NCBI GenBank assembly: GCA_014383605.1
Contig: JACNHM010000150.1
Span: forward strand, 1 to 8,407
DNA length: 8,407 nucleotides
Origin: Chloroflexota bacterium
GTDB lineage: Bacteria > Chloroflexota > Anaerolineae > UBA3071
Reading direction: 5' to 3'
How positions within the stretch are numbered: the first letter of the stretch is position 1; the number at the start of each line of letters is the position of its first letter. Of this stretch, positions 138 through 8,407 are shown one piece after another. The notes under the pieces are model-generated. The model did not search any database. It saw only the letters and a program-made list of their open reading frames with translations, and was not told the origin of the DNA. Made by a program: the position numbers and the translations under genes.

Positions 138-572
138 ATGAAGATTGACCGTTTTGAATTCCCCGATGACTTGTACTACGACAAGGAGCATAGCTGGGCC
201 CAGGTTGACGGAGATGTTGTCACCCAGGGCATCAGCGACTTCGGCCAAGCCATTGCCCAGGAGATCGTCTATGCCGAATCGCCGCGGGCAGGGCGGGAGG
301 TCGAGCAAGGCCAGACCTTCATGTCCATGGAGTCTGGCAAATGGGTCGGGCGCATCAAGGCCATTGTCAGCGGTTCCATTGCCGAGGCCAACGAGGAATT
401 GGAATGGGAGCCCACCGTGATAAACGAAGATCCCTATGGTGAGGGCTGGTTTGTCAAGATCGAGGCCTCAGACCTGGGCGAACTGGACAACCTGATGGAG
501 ACTGACTCCCCGGAGTTGAAAGCCTTCATCAAGGAGGAGGCAGAGAAGTACAAGGAGATTCTGGGCCAGTAA
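138..572 (+). CDS. GcvH-family lipoyl-carrier protein (LbpA-like candidate)
   Basis: This 144-residue cytoplasmic protein has the GcvH fold signature: an N-terminal YYDKEHSW stretch (residues 13-20), GISDFGQ (31-37), the lipoyl-lysine loop ESGKW with the likely lipoylated Lys at 68, VSG (77-79), then NEDPYGEGW (96-104), matching the NSEPYxGGW region of true H proteins. In the family this Lys carries lipoamide, whose dithiol/disulfide arm shuttles between enzyme active sites. Two things argue against a housekeeping glycine-cleavage role. No gcvT or gcvP is visible, and the protein sits in a cluster with an HdrD-like disulfide enzyme and a lipoate-ligase-family gene. In sHdr sulfur oxidizers, GcvH-like lipoate-binding proteins (LbpA) have this kind of setting. 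The loop has Gly-Lys-Trp where glycine-cleavage H proteins usually have Val-Lys-Ala, and the C-terminus ends in a charged helix rich in Glu and Lys (about 125-141). GcvH-family membership is near certain; the LbpA-like role is inference. Confidence 0.9.
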   Translation: MKIDRFEFPDDLYYDKEHSWAQVDGDVVTQGISDFGQAIAQEIVYAESPRAGREVEQGQTFMSMESGKWVGRIKAIVSGSIAEANEELEWEPTVINEDPYGEGWFVKIEASDLGELDNLMETDSPELKAFIKEEAEKYKEILGQ

Positions 573-574
573 AA

Positions 575-636
575 CGTGAAACGTGATTAGACCCCAACGT
601 TGGAGTCTTTTCACGTTTTTCGTTTCACGCTTCACT
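575..636 (+). repeat. Degenerate heptamer repeats in inverted arrangement
   Basis: The left side has two units on the pattern CGTGAAA (575-581, 582-588). The right side has four units on the complementary pattern TTTCACG (609-615, 616-622, 623-629, 630-636). CGTGAAACG at 575-583 and CGTTTCACG at 621-629 are perfect inverted copies. The repeat fills most of the gap between the lipoyl-protein and Mo-family genes. Similar 7-8 nt degenerate repeats recur at the other non-coding junctions of this window. Confidence 0.7.
579..620 (+). terminator. Hairpin with T-tract after the lipoyl gene (possible attenuator)
   Basis: An 8-bp outer stem, AAACGTGA (579-586) with TCACGTTT (611-618), encloses a near-perfect 20-nt palindrome at 589-608 that has one C/A mismatch. 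Runs of T follow the inner stem (608-611) and overlap the end of the outer stem (616-620). The shape fits a factor-independent terminator just downstream of the TAA at 570-572. I see no new promoter before the Mo-family gene at 660, so partial read-through is the simplest reading: it would yield more lipoyl carrier than complex subunits. The structure is nearly symmetric and could also act on the opposite strand. Confidence 0.45.
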
Positions 637-645
637 TCTGATTGG

Positions 646-652
646 TAAGGAG
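646..652 (+). promoter_or_regulatory. Ribosome binding site of the Mo-family subunit
   Basis: TAAGGAG ends 7 nt before the ATG at 660. It selects that ATG over the in-frame TTG at 642, which lies upstream of this site and would put six extra residues ahead of the Tat signal. Confidence 0.7.
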
Positions 653-659
653 CCTGCTT

Positions 660-2951
660 ATGGCCAAACTCACCCGGCGCACCTTTCTCAAGTTAGCTGG
701 CGCAACAGCCGCCGCCGCTGGACTTTACAGACGGGGGCTAGTCCGCCTGGGCTCGATGGCCCTGCCAGGGCAACAACTCCCCGGCCCACCTTCCGACCGG
801 CGGATGCTCGGCATCTGTCGGCTGTGCGCTGGCGGATGTGGGCTCTCCGCCCGCGTGGTAGATGGCCACGTGGTCAAGCTCGACGGCAACCCCTTCCACC
901 CCAACAACCAGGGCAAACTCTGCCCCAAGGGACAGGCGGGTCTCCAGGTGCTCTATGACCCCGACCGCATCAAGGGTCCCATGCGGCAGGTTGAAGACCG
1001 TGAGTGGCAGCAGATTTCCTGGGAGGAGGCGTTGGATGAGATCGCCAGTGCGCTGCGGGCGCTGCGCGATTCCGGTCACCCCGAACGGATGGTCTTTCTC
1101 CACGACGGCAAGCGCGGTCCGACCAGCGACCTTATGGCGCGCTTCTGCCGGGTCTTTGGCACTCCCAACGACGTGCGCTACCCCCGCCACAGCGCCGATG
1201 GGACACCGTTGGCCCACCTACTCACCCAGGGCTGGAACGACCACGCCGCCTACGACTGGGAGAACACCAACTACCTGCTGTGCTTCGGCGGCGCTTTCCT
1301 GGAGGCGTGGCAGCCGCTGGTGCGCCAACTGCGCGCCTACAGTCGCATGCGCCGTGGCCGCCCTGGCCGGCGGGCTAAGATCGTGCAGATCGAAAGCCGC
1401 GCCTCGGTGACAGCCACCAAAGCTGACGAGTGGATCCCCATCAACCCTGGCACTGAGGGTGCTCTGGCGCTGGGCATCGCCCACGTCCTCGTCCGCGACG
1501 AAGTCTACGACGCCGAGTTCGTGGCGGAACACACCTTCGGCTTCGGGGATTTTAGCGCACTGGTGCTGCGGGACTACGCCCCCGGCCACGTCGCGAAGAT
1601 CACCGGCGTGCCCGAGGAGACCATTGCGCGCATCGCTCGCGAATTTGCCGCCGCCGGGCCGGCGGCGGTGGCGGCGGGGGACGCGAGCGGCTACACCAAC
1701 AGCCTCTACAGCCAATGGGCCATCCACACCCTCAACGCGCTGGTCGGGTCCATCGAGTCGCCCGGCGGGGTGATGAGGCAGATAGAGCCGCCGCTGGCCT
1801 CCTGGCCCGAGCCCGCGTTGGACGAGATTGCCGCGCGAGGACTGGCCCAGCCGCGAGCGGACGGAGACGAATTCCCGCTGGCCGAAAACGCACCCCACGC
1901 GCTGACCCAGGCCCCTTACCCCATCGAGGTTCTGTTCCTCTACCACACCAACCCGGTCTACGACGATCCGCCCGAGTTGGGCTGGGAAGCGGCGCTCGAG
2001 CGCGTCCCGCTGGTCGTCAGTTTCTCCCCCTACCTGGACGAGACCAGCGAGCACGCCGATCTCTTGCTGCCCGACTGCACCTATCTGGAAAAGTGGTTCC
2101 TCGAACCGCTCGAGCCCAGCCTGGGCTACCCGGCGGTCGGATTGGGCCAGCCCATCGTCGCTCCGCTCTACGACACGCGCAACACCGCCGACGTGCTGAT
2201 CGAGCTGGCCCAGGCGCTGGGCGGCTCGATGGCCGCCGCGCTTCCGTGGACCGGCTTTGTGGAGGCGCTCCGGGAACAGGTACAGGGGCTGTACCAGGCA
2301 GGGAGCGGGATGCCTTCTGGCGAAACAGCGGAAGCGTTCGAGGCCTTCTGGGCCGAACTGCAATCCCGTGGTGTCTGGTACGACCAACCCTACGAGTTTG
2401 GTCAATGGGAACGTACCTTTGCCACCCCATCGGGCAAGTTCGAGTTCGCCTCGCAGATACTTCGAGAGCGGCTGGAAACGCTTGGGACGGTGTTCGCGGA
2501 GGAGGATCTGTTGCCTCGTTACCAGGCTCCGGCCTTTGAGGGAGAGGAAACCGAGTACCCCTTCCACCTGCACACCTTCAAGCCGATCACCTACACCGAA
2601 CGTTGGGGAGCCAACCTCCCCTGGCTGCAAGAGATCTATGGGTTGCACGTGCAGGAAAAATGGGACAGTTGGGTGGAACTCAACCCGGAGACCGCCCACG
2701 AGCTGGGCATCCACGACGGGGAACTGGTGCGGGTAGAGTCGGCCCAGGGGAGCATCGAGTTAAAGGCCCGCCTGTGGCCCGGCACCCCGCCCGAGGTGGT
2801 CAGCGTCCCGTTGGGGCAAGGACACACGGCCGGCGGGCACTGGGCAGAGAACCGGGGAGCCAATCCCAACGAACTCGTCGCCCCGCTGACCGACCCTCTG
2901 AGTGGCGAGTTGGCCGTCAAGTCCACGCGCGTTCGCGTCCACAAAGTATAA
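660..2951 (+). CDS. Molybdopterin-oxidoreductase-family subunit, Tat-exported, QrcB/ActB/PsrA-like
   Basis: The protein has 763 residues. The N-terminus carries a twin-arginine motif (RRTFLK, residues 6-11) and an Ala-rich hydrophobic stretch (12-23), so it should be exported folded to the outer face of the membrane. A [4Fe-4S] motif follows: Cys53-x2-Cys56-x3-Cys60-x27-Cys88, with the family's LCPKG context. The body is a DMSO-reductase-type MGD-binding domain, and the last ~130 residues are the dinucleotide-binding C-terminal domain. That domain contains GANLPWLQE, WDSWVELNP and PLGQGHTAGG, a pattern I associate with ActB and QrcB. Where many family members have the Mo-ligating Cys or selenocysteine, the sequence reads HSAD (177-180), with no Cys nearby. 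Either Asp180 or Ser178 is a ligand, or the subunit no longer has metal chemistry, as in ActB and QrcB. The neighbouring FeS and NrfD genes are the expected partners, so an electron-transfer role with quinone is likely. The substrate, if any, cannot be told from sequence. Confidence 0.88.
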   Translation: MAKLTRRTFLKLAGATAAAAGLYRRGLVRLGSMALPGQQLPGPPSDRRMLGICRLCAGGCGLSARVVDGHVVKLDGNPFHPNNQGKLCPKGQAGLQVLYDPDRIKGPMRQVEDREWQQISWEEALDEIASALRALRDSGHPERMVFLHDGKRGPTSDLMARFCRVFGTPNDVRYPRHSADGTPLAHLLTQGWNDHAAYDWENTNYLLCFGGAFLEAWQPLVRQLRAYSRMRRGRPGRRAKIVQIESRASVTATKADEWIPINPGTEGALALGIAHVLVRDEVYDAEFVAEHTFGFGDFSALVLRDYAPGHVAKITGVPEETIARIAREFAAAGPAAVAAGDASGYTNSLYSQWAIHTLNALVGSIESPGGVMRQIEPPLASWPEPALDEIAARGLAQPRADGDEFPLAENAPHALTQAPYPIEVLFLYHTNPVYDDPPELGWEAALERVPLVVSFSPYLDETSEHADLLLPDCTYLEKWFLEPLEPSLGYPAVGLGQPIVAPLYDTRNTADVLIELAQALGGSMAAALPWTGFVEALREQVQGLYQAGSGMPSGETAEAFEAFWAELQSRGVWYDQPYEFGQWERTFATPSGKFEFASQILRERLETLGTVFAEEDLLPRYQAPAFEGEETEYPFHLHTFKPITYTERWGANLPWLQEIYGLHVQEKWDSWVELNPETAHELGIHDGELVRVESAQGSIELKARLWPGTPPEVVSVPLGQGHTAGGHWAENRGANPNELVAPLTDPLSGELAVKSTRVRVHKV

Positions 2952-2953
2952 CC

Positions 2954-3016
2954 GCGCCGCCGTGAACAGGCGGCGCCGGGTTGCAAGCCCGCCCAGCACC
3001 GGCTCTTGAGGCCGGT
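2954..3016 (+). promoter_or_regulatory. Two GC-rich intergenic hairpins
   Basis: The first is GCGCCGCC (2954-2961) with GGCGGCGC (2969-2976), a perfect 8-bp stem with a 7-nt loop. The second is ACCGGC (2998-3003) with GCCGGT (3011-3016), a 6-bp stem with a 7-nt loop. They occupy most of the 87-nt gap between the Mo-family and FeS genes. Neither has a T-tract, so a classical terminator is unlikely. They could be mRNA-stabilising or processing structures that set subunit ratios. A functional role is inference. Confidence 0.4.
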
Positions 3017-3028
3017 ATGCCTTCAACC

Positions 3029-3035
3029 AGGAGGG
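3029..3035 (+). promoter_or_regulatory. Ribosome binding site of the FeS subunit
   Basis: AGGAGGG lies just upstream of the ATG at 3039 (3-nt gap). It selects this start over an in-frame TTG at 3006, which would add 11 residues before the conserved PRWGMVIDLDKC opening of the family and would fall inside the second hairpin. Confidence 0.75.
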
Positions 3036-3038
3036 AAT

Positions 3039-3737
3039 ATGCCGCGTTGGGGAATGGTCATTGACCTCGATAAATGTACTGCCTGCCAGGCGTGCACTGT
3101 CGCCTGCCAGGCCGAAAACAACGTGCCCTTTGCCGGGCCGGATGAGACCGCGCTGGGCCGCTCCAAGCACTGGCACGACGTGATGGCCGACGTAAAAGAG
3201 GAAGGGGAGTACCCCGAACTCCACGTGCGATTCATTCCCCGTCCCTGTATGCACTGCGAGGAACCGCCGTGCGTGGTGGTCTGCCCGGTGGGCGCGACCT
3301 ACGTGGACGACGAGGGCATCGTGCGGGTTGACTATCAGCGCTGCATCGGCTGCCGCTATTGCATCACGGCCTGCCCTTACGCCATCCGCTACTTTAACTG
3401 GTACGCCCCAGAGTACCCGGGGCGCTACGAGGATTACCTCAACCCCAACGTTCCGGTGCGGCCCGTGGGCGTGGTGGAAAAGTGCACCTTTTGCATCCAC
3501 CGGCTGGAGCAAGCCAAGTGGGAGGCGTCCGCTCAGGGGCGGGAGCTAACCGACGCCGACCTGGTATTGCTGCCCGCCTGCAACCAGGCCTGCCCGGCCT
3601 CGGCCCGCTACTTTGGCGACCTGGACGACCCCGAAAGTACCGTCTCCCGGCTGGCTCGCAGCCCGCGCGCCTTCAGACTGCTGGAGGACATAGGGACGGA
3701 GCCGAAGGTGTATTACCTGGCGGAGGACAAGAATTGA
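3039..3737 (+). CDS. 4Fe-4S ferredoxin electron-transfer subunit (PsrB/QrcC/DsrO-like)
   Basis: This 232-residue protein has sixteen cysteines in the four-cluster pattern of PsrB, DmsB and NrfC relatives: Cys13/16/19/23, Cys70/73/78/82, Cys102/105/108/112 and Cys149/152/181/185. The family wires a molybdopterin-type subunit to a membrane NrfD-type subunit through a chain of [4Fe-4S] clusters. No signal peptide is visible. In this family the FeS subunit is usually carried across the membrane by its Tat-exported partner, here the preceding gene. The sequence between clusters (YFNWYAPEYP at 118-127, VGVVEKCTFC at 143-152) fits the QrcC/PsrB branch. The stop is separated from the NrfD start by only 2 nt, so the two are surely co-translated. 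Family assignment is firm; the exact electron partners are inferred from gene order. Confidence 0.93.
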   Translation: MPRWGMVIDLDKCTACQACTVACQAENNVPFAGPDETALGRSKHWHDVMADVKEEGEYPELHVRFIPRPCMHCEEPPCVVVCPVGATYVDDEGIVRVDYQRCIGCRYCITACPYAIRYFNWYAPEYPGRYEDYLNPNVPVRPVGVVEKCTFCIHRLEQAKWEASAQGRELTDADLVLLPACNQACPASARYFGDLDDPESTVSRLARSPRAFRLLEDIGTEPKVYYLAEDKN

Positions 3738-3739
3738 GC

Positions 3740-5041
3740 ATGACTGACGAACAGGGATTCGGCAAACACGAGATACTGATCAAGCCCCTGGAGGGCGCTG
3801 GCAGGGGGTTCATCCTGACGGTCGTCGTCCTGGCCGGTATCGTCGCCTTTGGCGCATTTGCCTACGTCTGGCAGCTCGTCCACGGCCTGGGTGTGACTGG
3901 GCTGAACCGGCCCGTCACCTGGGGATTCTACATCATCAACTGCATCTTCTTCATCGCCATCAGCTACGGCGGCACGATGACCTCCGCCATCCTGCGTTTG
4001 GTGAACGCCAGGTGGCGGCTGCCCATCACGCGCGCCGCCGAGGTGATCACGGTGTGCGCGCTGGGCGTCGGCGCTGTCAACATCATGCTCGATATGGGAC
4101 GGCCGGATCGGGTGCTGAACCTGGTGCTCCACGGGCGGTTCCAGTCTCCCATTATGTGGGACTTTTCTTGCATCATGCTCGACCTGACTTGCAGCTTCCT
4201 CTACCTCTATCTGCCCCTGATTCCCGACATCGCCCTGTTGCGGGACAGATACCCGCACCGCAAGCGGCTATACAGCTTCCTGGCCCTGGGCTACACCGGC
4301 GCCCTGAAGCAGAGACACCTGTTGGAGAAAGCCGTTGACGCGCTGGCAGTGATGATGATTCCCATCGCCGTCTTGGTGAACAGCGTGCTAGCTTCGCTCT
4401 TCTCGCTGACCACCCAGCCCATGTGGCACAGCACGCTGATGGGACCCGACTTCGTGGTGGGAGCCATCTTCAGCGGCATTGGCGCGCTCATCGTCGCACT
4501 GGCGATCCTGCGCAAGGTGCTCCACCTGGAAGATTATTTCCAACCCAAGCAGTTCAACAACCTGGGGCTGCTGCTCCTGGTCATGACGATCACGTGGCTC
4601 TACTTTACCCTGGCCGAGTACGTGACCACGCTATACGGCAACGAGCCTAGCCACATGGCCGTCTTTGACGCCAAAATCAGTGGCGAGTTCGCCCCCTACT
4701 TTTGGGCGCAGGTGATCTTTTGCTTCGTCATCCCGTTCATCATCCTCACCTCCCGCCGCCTCCGCACGATTGCCGGGACGGTCATCGCCGGTATCTCGGT
4801 CAACGTCGGCATGTGGCTGGAGCGCTTGATGATCATCGTGCCCACGCTCACCCGTCCGCGTATGCCCATCGGCGTGGGGCACTACGCGCCCACCTGGGTC
4901 GAGTGGGCCATCATGGCCGCTAGCGCTGCGGGCATCATCCTGCTCTATGTACTGTTCACCAAATTCTTCCCCATCGTCTCGATTTGGGAGATCGAGGAAG
5001 AATTGGCAGATTGGGAAGCTGGCGAATTGGGGAACTGGTAA
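3740..5041 (+). CDS. nrfD: NrfD/PsrC-family integral membrane subunit
   Basis: The 433-residue protein has about ten hydrophobic segments (near 24-46, 60-88, 98-118, 138-163, 199-222, 237-258, 274-297, 317-337, 341-366 and 386-411). This is the ten-helix NrfD/ActC/QrcD architecture rather than the shorter eight-helix PsrC form. Supporting family stretches are NRPVTWGFY (56-64), LEKAVDALAVMMIP (195-208) and MWLERLMIIVPTL (358-370). The subunit binds or reduces/oxidises quinone and anchors the FeS and Mo-family subunits; in some relatives it is proposed to take part in ion translocation. The start is ATG 3740, with GGAGG at 3722-3726, a rather long 13-nt spacing compensated by tight coupling to the upstream stop. 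The C-terminal tail (416-433, Glu/Trp-rich, ending GELGNW) is encoded by G/T-rich DNA whose complement resembles the CCAATCTA repeats just downstream, so this tail may have been extended by repeat DNA. Confidence 0.93.
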   Translation: MTDEQGFGKHEILIKPLEGAGRGFILTVVVLAGIVAFGAFAYVWQLVHGLGVTGLNRPVTWGFYIINCIFFIAISYGGTMTSAILRLVNARWRLPITRAAEVITVCALGVGAVNIMLDMGRPDRVLNLVLHGRFQSPIMWDFSCIMLDLTCSFLYLYLPLIPDIALLRDRYPHRKRLYSFLALGYTGALKQRHLLEKAVDALAVMMIPIAVLVNSVLASLFSLTTQPMWHSTLMGPDFVVGAIFSGIGALIVALAILRKVLHLEDYFQPKQFNNLGLLLLVMTITWLYFTLAEYVTTLYGNEPSHMAVFDAKISGEFAPYFWAQVIFCFVIPFIILTSRRLRTIAGTVIAGISVNVGMWLERLMIIVPTLTRPRMPIGVGHYAPTWVEWAIMAASAAGIILLYVLFTKFFPIVSIWEIEEELADWEAGELGNW

Positions 5042-5066
5042 AGTGGTTATCTCCCAATCTACCAGT
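5034..5066 (+). repeat. Inverted repeat spanning the NrfD stop codon
   Basis: ACTGGTA (5034-5040) pairs with TACCAGT (5060-5066), a perfect 7-bp stem over the TAA at 5039-5041. A competing pair, AGATTGGGA (5008-5016) with TCCCAATCT (5052-5060), is also perfect over 9 nt. There is no T-tract. It is part of the repeat-rich junction rather than a clear terminator. Confidence 0.4.
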
Positions 5067-5162
5067 GTACCGATGAACCAATCTACCAGCTTCAACCTGA
5101 GAGGACAACTGGACGGATGAAACCAATCTACCAATCTACCAATCTACCAATCTACCAACCTA
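5054..5162 (+). repeat. CCAATCTA octamer repeats, dispersed then tandem
   Basis: Single copies of CCAATCTACCA occur at 5054-5064 and 5078-5088. A tandem array of four perfect CCAATCTA units (5123-5130, 5131-5138, 5139-5146, 5147-5154) plus a variant CCAACCTA (5155-5162) follows. The tandem array lies inside the start of the cytochrome gene and encodes its N-terminal tail, where PIYQ recurs at residues 3-6 and 11-14. Eight is not a multiple of three, so a change of one unit shifts the reading frame. Confidence 0.85.
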
Positions 5163-6895
5163 TACACGCCCGCATCATCCCCGTGTTGAGCCGCTTTTGG
5201 TCATTGATCTTGTGCTCATTGTTCATTGTTCATTGTTCATTGTTTATTGTCTTTGCCCAGCCTCCGGTGCCACATCCCCAGGAAGAGGGTGGCATATCCT
5301 ATGAGGATTGCGTGGTTTGCCACCGCACGGGCGAAGAGGGCGCTCCGTTGCTGGCCGCCGACCACGCCCAGCACGAGAACGCCGACTGCCGCGTGTGCCA
5401 CGGCACCACCGGGATGCTGGAGGCTACTAACATCTCGCACCCCGTCGCCGGGTGGGAGGACTGCCGCGGCTGTCACGACCGGTGGGACGGCAAGGACATT
5501 GAAATCCCCAACCTGGCCGACTCCGACTACGATCACACCATCTACGAAAGCAACACCTGCGTGAGCTGTCATCCCATGGCGGCCCGCTACTACGAGGGGA
5601 TGCCACCGGTCTCCTGTGGCGTCTGCCACCTGGAAAGCGCTGCCGCGGAGACGATCCACAACGGCCCGGAGAATTGGGTAGACTGTGTGGATTGTCACCA
5701 GGCGGCCGGCAATTACCCGCACGATTCGGAGCGAATTCACTCGCGGAACGAGGACTGTATGTCCTGCCACCACGAGCGGGAGGGCCACTGGACGTCGGAC
5801 AAGCCCGACGAGCGGTACAGCCTCGTCGGGCATATCGCCGAAGGGGACCCGCACGCGTGGGTGGACTGTTCTGCCTGCCACCTGCAGGTCGCCACCGTTG
5901 AGCGCAACCCGGTCACCAACCGCGTCCAGGTCGTCCTCCCCGAGACGGAGGAGGGCGTTCCTCCAGATAACCCGGAACTGGCGGTGATCGGCAAGGAAGT
6001 GGATTGCCAGCGTTGTCACGTCTCGGATAACACGGTCGCCGCACCAGCGGCGGAACTGCCGCCGCGCAGTCTCCTCTGCCTGGCCTGCCATGATGGTTCG
6101 CCCGTCGTCCAGGACGGCCTATCCTGGGCCGGGATTGGCATCTTTGGCCTGGGCATGTTGATGGTCGCCTCCATCTGGTTGCGAGGATCGGTCGGTGGGC
6201 AGCAGGGCCTGTCCCTCCCGACGCGCATCTGGCGCATCTTCGTCGCCATCCTTGACCTCATCACTACGCCGCGCCTTTTCGTCCTCATCTGGTCGTTCAT
6301 CGTGGACGGGGTGCTGCACAGGAAACTGTTCCGCAAAAGCAAGCTCCGCTGGCTGACGCACGCTTGTATGTTCCTGGGGATGGCGGCCCGCATGGCGCTG
6401 GGCGTCTTTACCTGGCTCATGGCGCTGCTGGCGCCCACCGCTCCGCTCACTCAGACCCTGGTCAACAAGAACTCGCCCGTCATCGCCCTCATCTATGACG
6501 GCCTGGGGTTGCTAGTCATCCTGGGCGCAGTCCTGGCCATCGTCCGGCGCTACGTCGTCAAGGACAAGCAACTCATCACCGGAGGGCAGGACACCGTTGC
6601 CATTGCCTTGATAGGCGCTATCTTCTTGATGGGCTTTGTCGTAGAAGGCGCACGCATCTTGACCACGAATCTCCGGCCTGGTCTGGCCGTCTTTTCCTCC
6701 GCTGGCTATCTCCTCTCTCTGGCGCTGGGGCTGATCCCGGCCAACTGGGGAGTGATCTATGGTTGGTTGTGGTACATCCACGCCGGCCTGGTGGCTGCGC
6801 TGGTCGCCTACCTGCCGTTCGGCAAGTTTATCCACATCCTGATCGCCCCCATTGTGGCGGCCTTCAATTCAGCCCTTAAAGCGAGGGTAACGTAG
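5117..6895 (+). CDS. Decaheme cytochrome c fused to a NarI/HdrE/DsrM-type cytochrome b domain
   Basis: This 592-residue protein has two parts. Residues 1-47 are a long signal peptide (core about 29-45, likely cut at VFA-Q). Residues 48-330 carry ten CxxCH heme c sites, starting at Cys 65, 91, 116, 148, 167, 190, 214, 251, 297 and 321, with many extra His as possible sixth ligands. From about 337 there are roughly six or seven hydrophobic segments resembling the nitrate-reductase-gamma family. His401, His415, His555 and His573 are candidate heme b ligands; the 555-573 spacing of 18 equals that of the second NarI ligand pair. Such b subunits pass electrons between quinone and a partner. The partner is probably the HdrD-like protein encoded immediately downstream, as in HdrED and DsrMK, while the heme c domain sits outside the membrane as DsrJ does. 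The start is ATG 5117 after GAGAGGA (5099-5105). A GTG at 5183 would give a more usual 25-residue signal peptide but has no ribosome site. The substrate of the heme c head is unknown. Confidence 0.88.
   Translation: MKPIYQSTNLPIYQPIHARIIPVLSRFWSLILCSLFIVHCSLFIVFAQPPVPHPQEEGGISYEDCVVCHRTGEEGAPLLAADHAQHENADCRVCHGTTGMLEATNISHPVAGWEDCRGCHDRWDGKDIEIPNLADSDYDHTIYESNTCVSCHPMAARYYEGMPPVSCGVCHLESAAAETIHNGPENWVDCVDCHQAAGNYPHDSERIHSRNEDCMSCHHEREGHWTSDKPDERYSLVGHIAEGDPHAWVDCSACHLQVATVERNPVTNRVQVVLPETEEGVPPDNPELAVIGKEVDCQRCHVSDNTVAAPAAELPPRSLLCLACHDGSPVVQDGLSWAGIGIFGLGMLMVASIWLRGSVGGQQGLSLPTRIWRIFVAILDLITTPRLFVLIWSFIVDGVLHRKLFRKSKLRWLTHACMFLGMAARMALGVFTWLMALLAPTAPLTQTLVNKNSPVIALIYDGLGLLVILGAVLAIVRRYVVKDKQLITGGQDTVAIALIGAIFLMGFVVEGARILTTNLRPGLAVFSSAGYLLSLALGLIPANWGVIYGWLWYIHAGLVAALVAYLPFGKFIHILIAPIVAAFNSALKARVT
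5217..5251 (+). repeat. CATTGTT heptamer tandem repeat encoding the signal-peptide core
   Basis: Four perfect CATTGTT units (5217-5223, 5224-5230, 5231-5237, 5238-5244) and one variant TATTGTC (5245-5251) lie in the cytochrome gene. They encode the duplicated heptapeptide pattern SLFIVHC/SLFIVFA (residues 34-47), that is, the hydrophobic core and cleavage site of the signal peptide. A one-unit change is a 7-nt frameshift. Confidence 0.85.
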
Positions 6896-8119
6896 ATGCC
6901 CAAGACGGTTGAAGCAACCCGGTTCAGTTTCCGACAGTTGTTAGAGTTGGATGCCTGCACCCGCTGCGGCGAGTGCGTCAAATGGTGCCCCACTTTCACA
7001 GAGAAGCAGGAACTGGACGAGATCACCCCGCTGCGCAAGATCGAGCGCACGCGTTCCTTTCTGAGAGCGCAGGCGCTAGGGCCGTTGGGCCGTCTGTTCG
7101 GTTACCAGCGCGCTACTGAGGAGACGCTCCAGATGTTCTCCGCAGGCACCTATGACTGCACCCTCTGCGGGCGCTGTGCTGTCGTCTGCCCGGTCAACAT
7201 AGACACCCGCTCTCTGTGGATCGCCATGCGCGAGCAGTTGGTGGACATGGAGTACCATCCCGAGATCATGAACACCATGCGGGACGCCATCTCCGGCTCC
7301 TACAACATCTCCGGCGATGCCAACGAAGACCGCCTCATCTGGAGCGAGAACCTGCCTACCATCCCCGAAGGGGTGAAGGGCAAGGAGCAAGCGGAGGTGG
7401 TGTACTTCGTCGGCTGCGTGTCCTCGTTCTACCCGCAGAGCTACAGCATTCCGCAGAGCTTCGTGGAGATCCTGGACAAGGCCAAGGTGGACTTCCTCAC
7501 CATGGGCGAAGCGGAGCAATGCTGCGGCTTCCCGCTGATCGTCGCCGGCATGGGCGACAGCGCACGGGCGCTGGTGCAGCACAACGTCGAGGCCGTGCGC
7601 AAGACGGGGGCCAAGACGCTGGTGGCCTCCTGTCCCTCCTGCTATCACACCTGGCACAGCGACTACCCGCGCCTCATCGGCGAGCCGCTGGGCTTCCAGG
7701 TGCTGCACAGCACGGAGTTCCTGCGCGACGTGATCACTGATGGGCGCATCAGGCTGGGCAGCTTCGGCCAGCCGGTCACCTATCACGACCCCTGCGACCT
7801 GGGCCGCAGCAGTGGCATCTACGACGCGCCGCGCCAGATCATCGGCGCCATTCCCGACGTTGAGTTCGCCGAGATGAAGGAGACGCGGGAGTATTCGCTC
7901 TGTTGCGGCGGCGGCGGCGACGTGGAGATGGCCGACAGTGACCTTTCGGCCAGCGTGGCGCGCCGCCGGCTGGAGCAGGCGCAGGCCACGGAAGCCAAGG
8001 TCATCCTTTCCGCCTGCCAGCAGTGCGTGCGCACGCTGGCCGGGGCGGCGCGCCGCGAGAAGATTCGCATCCGGAGTATGGACATCGTGGAACTGGTGGC
8101 CAAGGTGATCGAGGCATGA
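6896..8119 (+). CDS. HdrD/DsrK-like iron-sulfur protein, two 4Fe-4S and two CCG domains
   Basis: This 407-residue protein lacks a signal peptide and is probably cytoplasmic at the membrane. The N-terminal HdrC-like part has two [4Fe-4S] motifs: Cys21/24/27/31 and Cys88/91/94/98. The HdrB-like part has two complete CCG motifs: Cys174-x34-Cys209-Cys210-x35-Cys246-x2-Cys249, and Cys300-x35-Cys336-Cys337-x36-Cys374-x2-Cys377. In HdrB such motifs hold noncubane [4Fe-4S] clusters that split or form a disulfide. The protein is thus an HdrC-HdrB fusion equivalent to HdrD. The ATG directly follows the TAG of the cytochrome gene, with GAGGG at 6883-6887, so the two are translationally coupled. That mirrors the HdrE-HdrD and DsrM-DsrK pairings. 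Relatives with the same domains include GlcF, GlpC and LutA, but those sit with flavin dehydrogenases, which are absent here. The substrate is unproven; the neighbouring lipoyl protein is the obvious dithiol/disulfide candidate. Confidence 0.9.
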   Translation: MPKTVEATRFSFRQLLELDACTRCGECVKWCPTFTEKQELDEITPLRKIERTRSFLRAQALGPLGRLFGYQRATEETLQMFSAGTYDCTLCGRCAVVCPVNIDTRSLWIAMREQLVDMEYHPEIMNTMRDAISGSYNISGDANEDRLIWSENLPTIPEGVKGKEQAEVVYFVGCVSSFYPQSYSIPQSFVEILDKAKVDFLTMGEAEQCCGFPLIVAGMGDSARALVQHNVEAVRKTGAKTLVASCPSCYHTWHSDYPRLIGEPLGFQVLHSTEFLRDVITDGRIRLGSFGQPVTYHDPCDLGRSSGIYDAPRQIIGAIPDVEFAEMKETREYSLCCGGGGDVEMADSDLSASVARRRLEQAQATEAKVILSACQQCVRTLAGAARREKIRIRSMDIVELVAKVIEA

Positions 8120-8126
8120 CAGGATC

Positions 8127-8150
8127 ATAGACGTCAGAGGATACGTCTGT
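8127..8150 (+). other. Hairpin downstream of the HdrD-like gene
   Basis: AGACGT (8129-8134) pairs with ACGTCT (8143-8148), extended by a wobble and an A-T pair to about 8 bp with an 8-nt loop. It begins 8 nt after the stop at 8117-8119. No T-tract follows, so termination is uncertain; RNA processing or 3'-end protection is equally possible. Confidence 0.35.
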
Positions 8151-8175
8151 CTGGCGACGCGCCCTCCTTCCACGA

Positions 8176-8200
8176 ATGCGAACTAACTGCACATTCGCAT
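8176..8200 (+). other. Inverted repeat in the leader of the lipoate-ligase gene
   Basis: ATGCGAA (8176-8182) and TTCGCAT (8194-8200) form a perfect 7-bp stem with an 11-nt loop. It may be an operator or an RNA hairpin. A CCTGTCTA/CCTGTCTG octamer pair follows at 8219-8234. The rest of the 157-nt gap (8120-8276) shows no gene. There is a TTGACG at 8239-8244 but no matching -10 at usual spacing, so I cannot assign a promoter here. Confidence 0.35.
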
Positions 8201-8263
8201 GTCGCTCCACGTAGCCCACCTGTCTACCTGTCTGCTCATTGACGTGGCAATAACTCTCAATTC

Positions 8264-8270
8264 AGGAGGT
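8264..8270 (+). promoter_or_regulatory. Ribosome binding site of the lipoate-ligase-family gene
   Basis: AGGAGGT, a full anti-Shine-Dalgarno match, sits 6 nt before the TTG at 8277. No ATG or GTG follows in that frame nearby, so this site defines the unusual TTG start. Confidence 0.75.
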
Positions 8271-8276
8271 CCTTCC

Positions 8277-8407
8277 TTGAAACTCTACCGTCTCAACACC
8301 GTTTCGTGGCAAGATTCCCAACTTCTTTACCATGCCCTCCCCCGTCTGGGCCGCGAAGGGTTGATTCTGCTATCTCCGGCCACGCCCTACGTCTGCATCG
8401 GCTACTT
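8277..8407 (+). CDS. Lipoate-protein ligase / octanoyltransferase family protein, N-terminal fragment
   Basis: The gene starts at TTG 8277 and stays open to the right edge, so only about 43 residues are visible. They read KLYRLNTVSWQDSQLLYHAL, then a Leu-rich strand, then SPATPYVCIGY. This fits the opening of the BPL/LplA/LipB fold: an R-L-x-x beta strand, a helix where ligases have the xNMAxDEAL segment, and a strand ending in the P-x-V-x-I/L-G-Y lipoate-binding turn. The NMA-D motif itself is replaced by DSQLLYHAL, so this is a divergent member rather than housekeeping LplA. In the family these enzymes attach lipoate or octanoate to the lysine of lipoyl domains; the natural client here is the GcvH-like protein at the other end of the cluster. 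The fragment is short, so ligase versus octanoyltransferase cannot be decided. Confidence 0.65.
   Translation, partial: MKLYRLNTVSWQDSQLLYHALPRLGREGLILLSPATPYVCIGY

Follow-up and report, generated by a model that had tools for sequence, protein, structure and literature searches.

We analyzed an 8,407-nucleotide stretch of a Chloroflexota genome (assembly GCA_014383605.1, contig JACNHM010000150.1), referred to here as the window, which encodes a putative lipoyl carrier of the GcvH family together with a membrane complex resembling the heterodisulfide reductase HdrDE. All window coordinates refer to this stretch, and the loci and genomes compared with it are labelled L### and G###. The carrier gene (138..572) is followed by a molybdenum–iron-sulfur–NrfD (Mo-FeS-NrfD) module, a gene fusing a ten-CXXCH cytochrome c to an HdrE/NarI-type cytochrome b (5117..6895), an HdrD-like gene (6896..8119), and the 5' end of a gene for a predicted LplA/Lpl(AB)-type lipoate-protein ligase that runs off the window (8277..8407). 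A sequence-only reading of this DNA had listed a GcvH-like protein, an HdrD-like protein with two CCG motifs, a cytochrome b/c partner, a Qrc/Psr-like module, and a ligase start, all on one strand, and each of these parts is present on the plus strand. The HdrD start codon directly follows the stop codon of the cytochrome fusion gene. Because 87 bp separate the carrier gene from the Mo gene, a single operon is unproved, and a scan for promoters and terminators returned matches near chance level. The gene set is more than a chance grouping, since GcvH and HdrE-HdrD recur together on many contigs.

The putative lipoyl carrier family

The carrier is a predicted protein of 144 amino acids (aa) with a GCV_H domain (Pfam, 118 bits). 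Residue K68, in the motif MSMESGKWVG, aligns with the lysine that bears the lipoyl group in H proteins of solved structure; the protein contains no cysteine. It could simply be an ordinary glycine-cleavage H protein encoded near redox genes. Indeed, it exceeds the cutoff of the NCBIfam subfamily PRK01202 (129.7 versus 117 bits), and its database relatives, where named, are called glycine cleavage H. However, it fails the gcvH equivalog TIGR00527 (101 bits; cutoff, 115.85), and there was no Rfam match at the gathering score, hence no glycine riboswitch found, in the six sources scanned. Moreover, a canonical GcvH next to a Pfam GDC-P gene lies elsewhere in six of the seven genomes examined. These seven genomes yielded 15 further GcvH-like matches, 13 of them with loci: six adjoin gcvP (each Pfam-confirmed, one with gcvT too), one is canonical by motif only, three adjoin a DGC-domain-like gene (Pfam on one), two are LbpA-like, and one is of another kind. 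A separate GcvH-like group with the motif ETIKAD, adjoining a DGC-domain-like gene, was observed at L049, L052, and L054 (Pfam on L052); L054 additionally encodes a pyridine nucleotide-disulfide oxidoreductase.

Phylogeny pointed the same way. Our tree contained 45 GcvH proteins (29 family members, 3 from a sister group, 2 LbpA-like, 7 canonical, and 4 of a further type), with two N-terminal extensions trimmed from the input and with long branches that meet flagged as a caveat. The carrier family formed one group (support, 98/90), and all Hdr-linked carriers were separated from the 7 canonical proteins and 4 further paralogs by a branch with strong support (UFBoot, 100; SH-aLRT, 96). Around the lipoyl lysine, E[SA]GK[WY][VI]G occurred in 34/34 Hdr-linked carriers and 0/11 others. 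A database search returned 5,603 matches at 1e-15; we examined 119 of the best 120 clusters, among which all 119 kept MS[ML]ESGKWVG and 114 lacked any cysteine. By these sequence criteria, the carriers form a clade of their own, distinct from glycine-cleavage H proteins, recognizable by the lysine motif and nearly cysteine-free. The claim that the window carrier is not the glycine-cleavage H protein was thereby upheld, with the H proteins beside gcvT or gcvP falling on the other side of the branch, and we consider an ordinary H protein very improbable.

The carrier and its HdrD and HdrE neighbours

A scan with HdrD returned 35 loci, seven from Chloroflexota (60 to 68% identity; one of them, L033, is a fragment at the end of a contig) and a further 28 (33 to 39%), mostly from Methanosarcina. 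A cytochrome b match lay just upstream of HdrD, giving the order HdrE-HdrD, in 19 of 25 archaeal loci. Through HdrD alone (the scan plus type-a HdrD matches of 1e-189 or better) we found 20 genomes, and G407, found through GcvH, brought the total to 21. The GcvH family was present in 19 of the 20 HdrD-found genomes, G423 being the exception. In 16 of them the carrier and HdrD genes shared a contig and lay no more than 3.6 kb apart, in the order GcvH-HdrE-HdrD (n = 14) or HdrE-HdrD-GcvH (n = 2; L001 and L076). Among the exceptions to this proximity, HdrD lies about 1 kb or less from a contig end in G002, G423, and G425; in G199, GcvH stands at the end of an HdrC-HdrB-HdrA-MvhD run, and HdrE-HdrD form a single fused frame followed by the ligase. 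In Chloroflexota, then, GcvH and HdrE-HdrD form a conserved unit, as the sequence-only reading had anticipated in treating the carrier as a partner of HdrD, and clusters of this kind do not regularly lack the carrier.

At a threshold of 1e-40, the family was detected in 4 of 400 phylum-wide genomes (G005, the centre genome, included), 5 of 9 genomes belonging to one order, and 20 of 48 genomes belonging to another. In the 48-genome order, 13 of 14 genomes with type-a HdrD had the carrier, as did 7 of the 34 others; five of these seven (G412, G414, G415, G419, and G420) encode soluble HdrD-b on the carrier's stretch. Fisher tests, which ignore kinship and are not proof, gave P values of 5e-6 for GcvH with HdrD and 9e-6 for GcvH with the ligase.

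The window HdrD carries two 4Fe-4S motifs and two complete CCG motifs (CX34CCX35CPSC and CX35CCX36CQQC). Every cysteine of the cubane and noncubane motifs is kept in this protein and its aligned relatives, the Methanosarcina proteins included, and both full CCG motifs were found in 21/21 type-a HdrD proteins. Just upstream, the C-terminal domain of the 5117..6895 product is an HdrE-type cytochrome b (Pfam Nitrate_red_gam), and this half of the protein matches the cytochrome b immediately upstream of HdrD in related loci. Together, the intact CCG motifs and the adjoining cytochrome b gene substantiate the description of the complex as HdrDE-like. Positions 5050 to 5170 contain short, imperfect repeats resembling ccaatctaccaa that continue into the cytochrome open reading frame at its annotated start, so that the true start of this frame, and hence the N terminus of the fusion, is uncertain.

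The closest solved structure to the window HdrD is that of EtfD, which is not a disulfide enzyme, and family names show CCG proteins working with ETF, lactate, and glycerol-3-phosphate enzymes. It is therefore conceivable that HdrD is an EtfD/GlcF-type wire, a quinone reductase for some other donor, with GcvH acting as a lipoyl relay or being a chance neighbour. Locus L075 (G022) fits such a wire: a GlcD-like FAD enzyme, an HdrD-like CCG protein, and a GcvH-family protein are encoded consecutively at positions 3 to 2665, with no HdrE match, in what from its genes is possibly a hydroxyacid-linked version of the carrier cluster. Yet in mycobacterial EtfD, Thr539 and His583 render the clusters non-catalytic (PMC13083937), whereas the window HdrD keeps every Hdr noncubane cysteine, including the catalytic arrangement lost in EtfD, and has serine at the position of His583. 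The threonine that replaces a cysteine in the first CCG motif of EtfD-type wires and the histidine of their CPHC were absent, with CC and CPSC in all 21 type-a proteins. Nor would chance neighbours be expected to recur in 16 of 20 genomes, and related carriers adjoin several different CCG proteins. A wire of this kind thus appears distinctly unlikely.

Multiheme partners recur in a minority of clusters, namely, the window and five loci (L003, L142, L143, L145, and L147), which bears out the cytochrome-HdrE fusion as more than a peculiarity of one contig. The five other loci share a seven-CXXCH-HdrE fusion, together with six CXXCH motifs in a lipoprotein-like cytochrome and a b561-type protein (Pfam on L003 only); the latter two are fused in L142, L143, and L145. 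The window instead combines its ten-CXXCH fusion with the Mo-FeS-NrfD module. This module consists of a molybdopterin oxidoreductase with a TAT signal and kin among Phs, Psr, Arr, and Qrc proteins (660..2951), a QrcC/DsrO-like 4Fe-4S ferredoxin subunit (3039..3737), and an NrfD/DsrP/QrcD-like integral membrane subunit (3740..5041; Pfam NrfD, 125 bits), all on the plus strand. The Mo protein scored 325 bits with the NCBIfam model for PhsA and 301 bits with that for QrcB, both under the cutoff (440 for QrcB), and its Protein Data Bank relatives are ArrA and PsrA-type. Serine occupies the column of the Mo-ligand cysteine in the window protein (S 72, C 13, R 13, and T 8 of 110 sequences).

The layout of a CCG protein, cytochrome b, multiheme cytochrome c, and FeS/NrfD proteins is shared with DsrMKJOP, Tmc, and Qrc. 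In contrast to the members of those systems, the window proteins fall below the respective cutoffs: HdrD reached 109.7 of 400 bits for DsrK and 111.3 of 735 bits for TmcB, the FeS subunit 285 of 400 bits for QrcC and 188 of 200 bits for DsrO, and the NrfD-like subunit 110 of 350 bits for DsrP and 54 of 570 bits for QrcD. Dsr systems also have DsrC where the window system has a lipoyl carrier. A search with the Mo protein at 1e-120 found nothing in the 48 genomes of one order, a set with no known positive, and there was no Mo match beside GcvH in the mapped family loci. The Mo-FeS-NrfD module had been proposed as part of the system; we found it at no other locus and set it aside as specific to the window.

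The ligase gene starts with TTG at position 8277 behind AGGAGGT. Its 43-aa fragment in the window is too short to have matched Pfam or NCBIfam; it shares 71 to 95% identity with 11 full-length ligases from related clusters and 36% with one sister-group ligase. The full-length relative in L005 is a Pfam LplA-B_cat protein. An LplB-like C terminus was recognized in the ligases of L074 (71 bits, over the cutoff of 65) and L005 (56 bits, under it), both of which are under the TIGR00545 cutoff of 280. As a regular bracket of the HdrD complex, the role first given to it, the ligase did not hold up: it follows HdrD at a distance of 1.2 kb or less in 8 of the 20 HdrD-found genomes, four others (G007, G426, G430, and G432) not being judgeable because the contig ends at HdrD. 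At 1e-80, the ligase was found in 15 of 20 GcvH-positive and 3 of 28 GcvH-negative genomes of the 48-genome order. Canonical LipA exceeded its cutoff in 12 of 21 genomes, and lipoate synthesis therefore does not separate the readings considered here. In L004, L005, L006, and L147, HdrD and the ligase are separated by a gene for a UbiA-family prenyltransferase (Pfam on L005), which perhaps has a role connected with quinone or heme.

Soluble Hdr modules and sulfur-linked relatives

To place the carrier in its wider context, we mapped 28 family loci (351 kb in total, in stretches of 4.0 to 21.2 kb). An Hdr-type gene lay on the same stretch as the carrier in 26 of them; 17 had HdrDE, 17 had HdrA, HdrB, HdrC, HdrD-b, or MvhD, 9 had both, and the remaining one was L075 with its GlcD-like and HdrD-like genes. 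Many clusters joined HdrA/MvhD, HdrB/C, or HdrD-b to a hydrogenase, formate-dehydrogenase-like, or Nuo-like module. For example, L005 has the order GcvH-HdrE-HdrD-UbiA-ligase-HdrB-HdrC-HdrD-b-HdrA-MvhD-NuoE-NuoF-NuoG, and L143 has the order HdrD-b-HdrA-MvhD-hydrogenase small-large-GcvH-cytochromes-HdrE-HdrD. The run HdrA-MvhD-hydrogenase small-large-GcvH-HdrE-HdrD is shared by L142, L143, and L144, with MvhD cut by the contig start and HdrA not seen in L144. In L143, the best solved relative of HdrA is methanogen HdrA (470 bits), and those of the hydrogenase large subunit are 7t2r (380 bits) and MvhA (373 bits). This pairing of soluble HdrA, HdrB, HdrC, and MvhD genes with genes for H2, formate, or Nuo-like modules suggests that electrons are shuttled between soluble Hdr and HdrDE.

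Many of these HdrA genes are split by one in-frame TGA at the HdrA1/HdrA2 junction, in the context TLDCxx*IL, at 14/14 junctions found by script (L001, L005, L006, L073, L131, L132, L136, L138 to L140, L142, and L143). Judging from its context, the codon resembles a selenocysteine CXXU site. Selenoprotein forms of HdrA have been reported in Asgard archaea (PMC11291895).

Lipoyl proteins also take part in sulfur metabolism: LbpA is essential for sulfur oxidation by sHdr (PMC6067878), and an sHdr-LbpA cluster has been reported in the Chloroflexota member Thermomicrobium roseum (PMC6776052). The family carrier could hold sulfur, as lipoyl persulfide or sulfane sulfur, while membrane HdrDE takes electrons in an sHdr- or DsrMK-like oxidation. 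Two kinds of relatives are consistent with such a role. In the sister clade, HdrE-HdrD-GcvH clusters of L078 (5826-12466) and L079 (3399-11417) adjoin TusA- and DsrE-like genes and also have a ThiS-ThiF fusion (Pfam on L078), and that of L081 (4059-7818) has a ligase-like gene instead. In G005 and G006, two DsrE-like proteins, a NarI/DsrM-like cytochrome b, a DsrK-like protein, and a two-cysteine LbpA-like carrier are encoded consecutively (L167, 5091-8794; L168, 9487-13190). The DsrK-like protein of L167 (scanned as L043) scored 323 bits, with a cutoff of 400, and these runs are apparently a membrane DsrMK-type system paired with a lipoyl protein.

The family loci themselves look different. 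Nine TusA/DsrE-type queries at 1e-3 had no match in the 28 family loci (the rest of the genomes was not searched, nor was rhodanese), whereas the same queries did match in the control loci L078, L079, L167, and L168. The neighbours in the main family are HdrDE, HdrA, MvhD, hydrogenase, and formate-dehydrogenase-like genes. With sHdr-LbpA, the family shares a GcvH-like lipoyl protein, CCG Hdr proteins, and, in the window and part of the other clusters, an LplA-like ligase nearby; it differs in its membrane HdrDE and in lacking the two conserved cysteines that LbpA, except for some archaeal ones, carries near its N and C termini (PMC6067878). We therefore regard a sulfur-carrying role as unlikely. 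Since G005 and G006 each hold both systems, two jobs are suggested for the two carriers, namely, sulfur transfer by the cysteine-bearing carrier and electron transfer by the cysteine-free family carrier.

Lipoamide as a candidate substrate of HdrDE

We think it fairly probable that the GcvH-like protein is lipoylated and is a carrier dedicated to the membrane HdrDE-like complex, which would use its lipoamide/dihydrolipoamide couple as a disulfide/dithiol substrate. We favor this reading because the lipoyl lysine and the noncubane motifs are kept, the genes are conserved neighbours, and HdrA-MvhD-type genes occur in many of the clusters. Soluble HdrABC-type complexes would reduce (or oxidize) the carrier, exchanging electrons with ferredoxin and with H2, formate, or NADH. 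HdrD would oxidize (or reduce) the carrier at the noncubane clusters, and the hemes of HdrE would pass electrons to menaquinone. In the window variant, electrons from HdrE might also reach the periplasmic decaheme domain, which the Qrc-like Mo-FeS-NrfD module could link to the quinone pool. The E0' of lipoamide is about -0.29 V (PMC6067878), which makes oxidation of the dihydrolipoyl group by menaquinone downhill; electron flow from carrier to membrane is therefore favored, although the reverse is possible.

Several observations count against a lipoamide-dependent HdrDE. Lipoylation and binding of the carrier are steps that we infer from sequence, and the solved structure nearest to HdrD, EtfD, is a non-disulfide enzyme. 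Hdr genes are absent from the mapped stretches of two of the 28 family loci (L133 and L134), the ligase being what adjoins GcvH there, and HdrDE-type HdrD is missing from 7 of the 20 GcvH-positive genomes of the 48-genome order. The co-occurrence of genes is confounded by shared ancestry, which makes the genome counts descriptive. The ligase is close to HdrD in a minority of genomes, and at 1e-80 it was not found in 5 of the 20 GcvH-positive genomes yet was found in 3 GcvH-negative ones. The low potential of lipoamide makes it a poorer bifurcation acceptor than the heterodisulfide of coenzymes M and B (CoM-S-S-CoB). In Sporomusa ovata, a different system, linked to HdrABC, was not stimulated when free lipoate or dihydrolipoate was supplied (PMC9430772). 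Finally, the Mo module is unexplained in a carrier-HdrDE system. Of the HdrD-lipoamide membrane redox system as first proposed, then, the conserved carrier-HdrDE unit stands, the ligase linkage is partial, and the Mo module is confined to the window.

The proposed system has parallels in methanogens. As in Methanosarcina HdrDE, the cytochrome b gene precedes the CCG gene, all cluster cysteines are present, and identity is 37 to 40%; the differences are a bacterial host, an adjoining GcvH-family carrier, and in some clusters a cytochrome c fusion. CoM and CoB are not expected in these bacterial hosts, and the lipoyl protein would take over the work of CoM-S-S-CoB. Methanogen HdrABC-MvhAGD likewise has HdrA and MvhD, and in three of our loci the hydrogenase large subunit is roughly equidistant from MvhA and HydABCSL. 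In contrast to the methanogen complex, fused HdrD-b replaces HdrBC in some clusters, HdrA has an in-frame TGA, and a lipoyl carrier is adjacent. The Ehe cluster of Culexarchaeia also has GcvH adjoining HdrA2B2C2/HdrB and a hydrogenase, and its authors suggested that the lipoyl disulfide of GcvH fills the role of the unidentified disulfide of HdrB/HdrA2B2C2 (PMC9723716). That cluster is archaeal and has a membrane hydrogenase where the Chloroflexota clusters have HdrDE; the description of the cluster in that paper mentions neither a ligase nor a carrier family.

More tentatively, and with doubt slightly ahead of confidence, we propose that protein-bound lipoamide is a general redox currency in Chloroflexota, in which a dedicated carrier links soluble HdrA(BC)-MvhD modules using H2, formate, or NADH to HdrDE and, in a subgroup, on to multiheme cytochromes. 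The HdrA(BC)-MvhD complexes of such a scheme would probably be bifurcating or confurcating.

In the open-license PubMed Central papers that we consulted, neither these Chloroflexota clusters nor a lipoyl carrier paired with HdrDE is described, and the Culexarchaeia proposal is the nearest to it. What is already known is LbpA with soluble sHdr, including one case in Chloroflexota, and the proposal of GcvH as the Hdr disulfide in Culexarchaeia. Hdr proteins are widespread outside methanogens, where CoM-S-S-CoB is not expected, and their disulfide substrate is a standing question; authors working on Culexarchaeia (PMC9723716) and Asgard archaea (PMC11291895) call it unknown or unidentified. Linked through its gene neighbourhoods to HdrDE as well as to HdrABC-type complexes, the carrier is a single, purifiable candidate for that substrate, and its short motif could let annotators split Hdr-linked carriers from proteins now named GcvH. 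The pairing, in these uncultured Chloroflexota, of membrane and soluble Hdr-like enzymes with a dedicated lipoyl carrier suggests that a lipoic-acid protein replaces the small-molecule disulfide of methanogens as the electron shuttle. If true, this would answer which disulfide many non-methanogen Hdr enzymes use, and respiratory electron transfer would join carbon and sulfur chemistry among the roles of lipoate.

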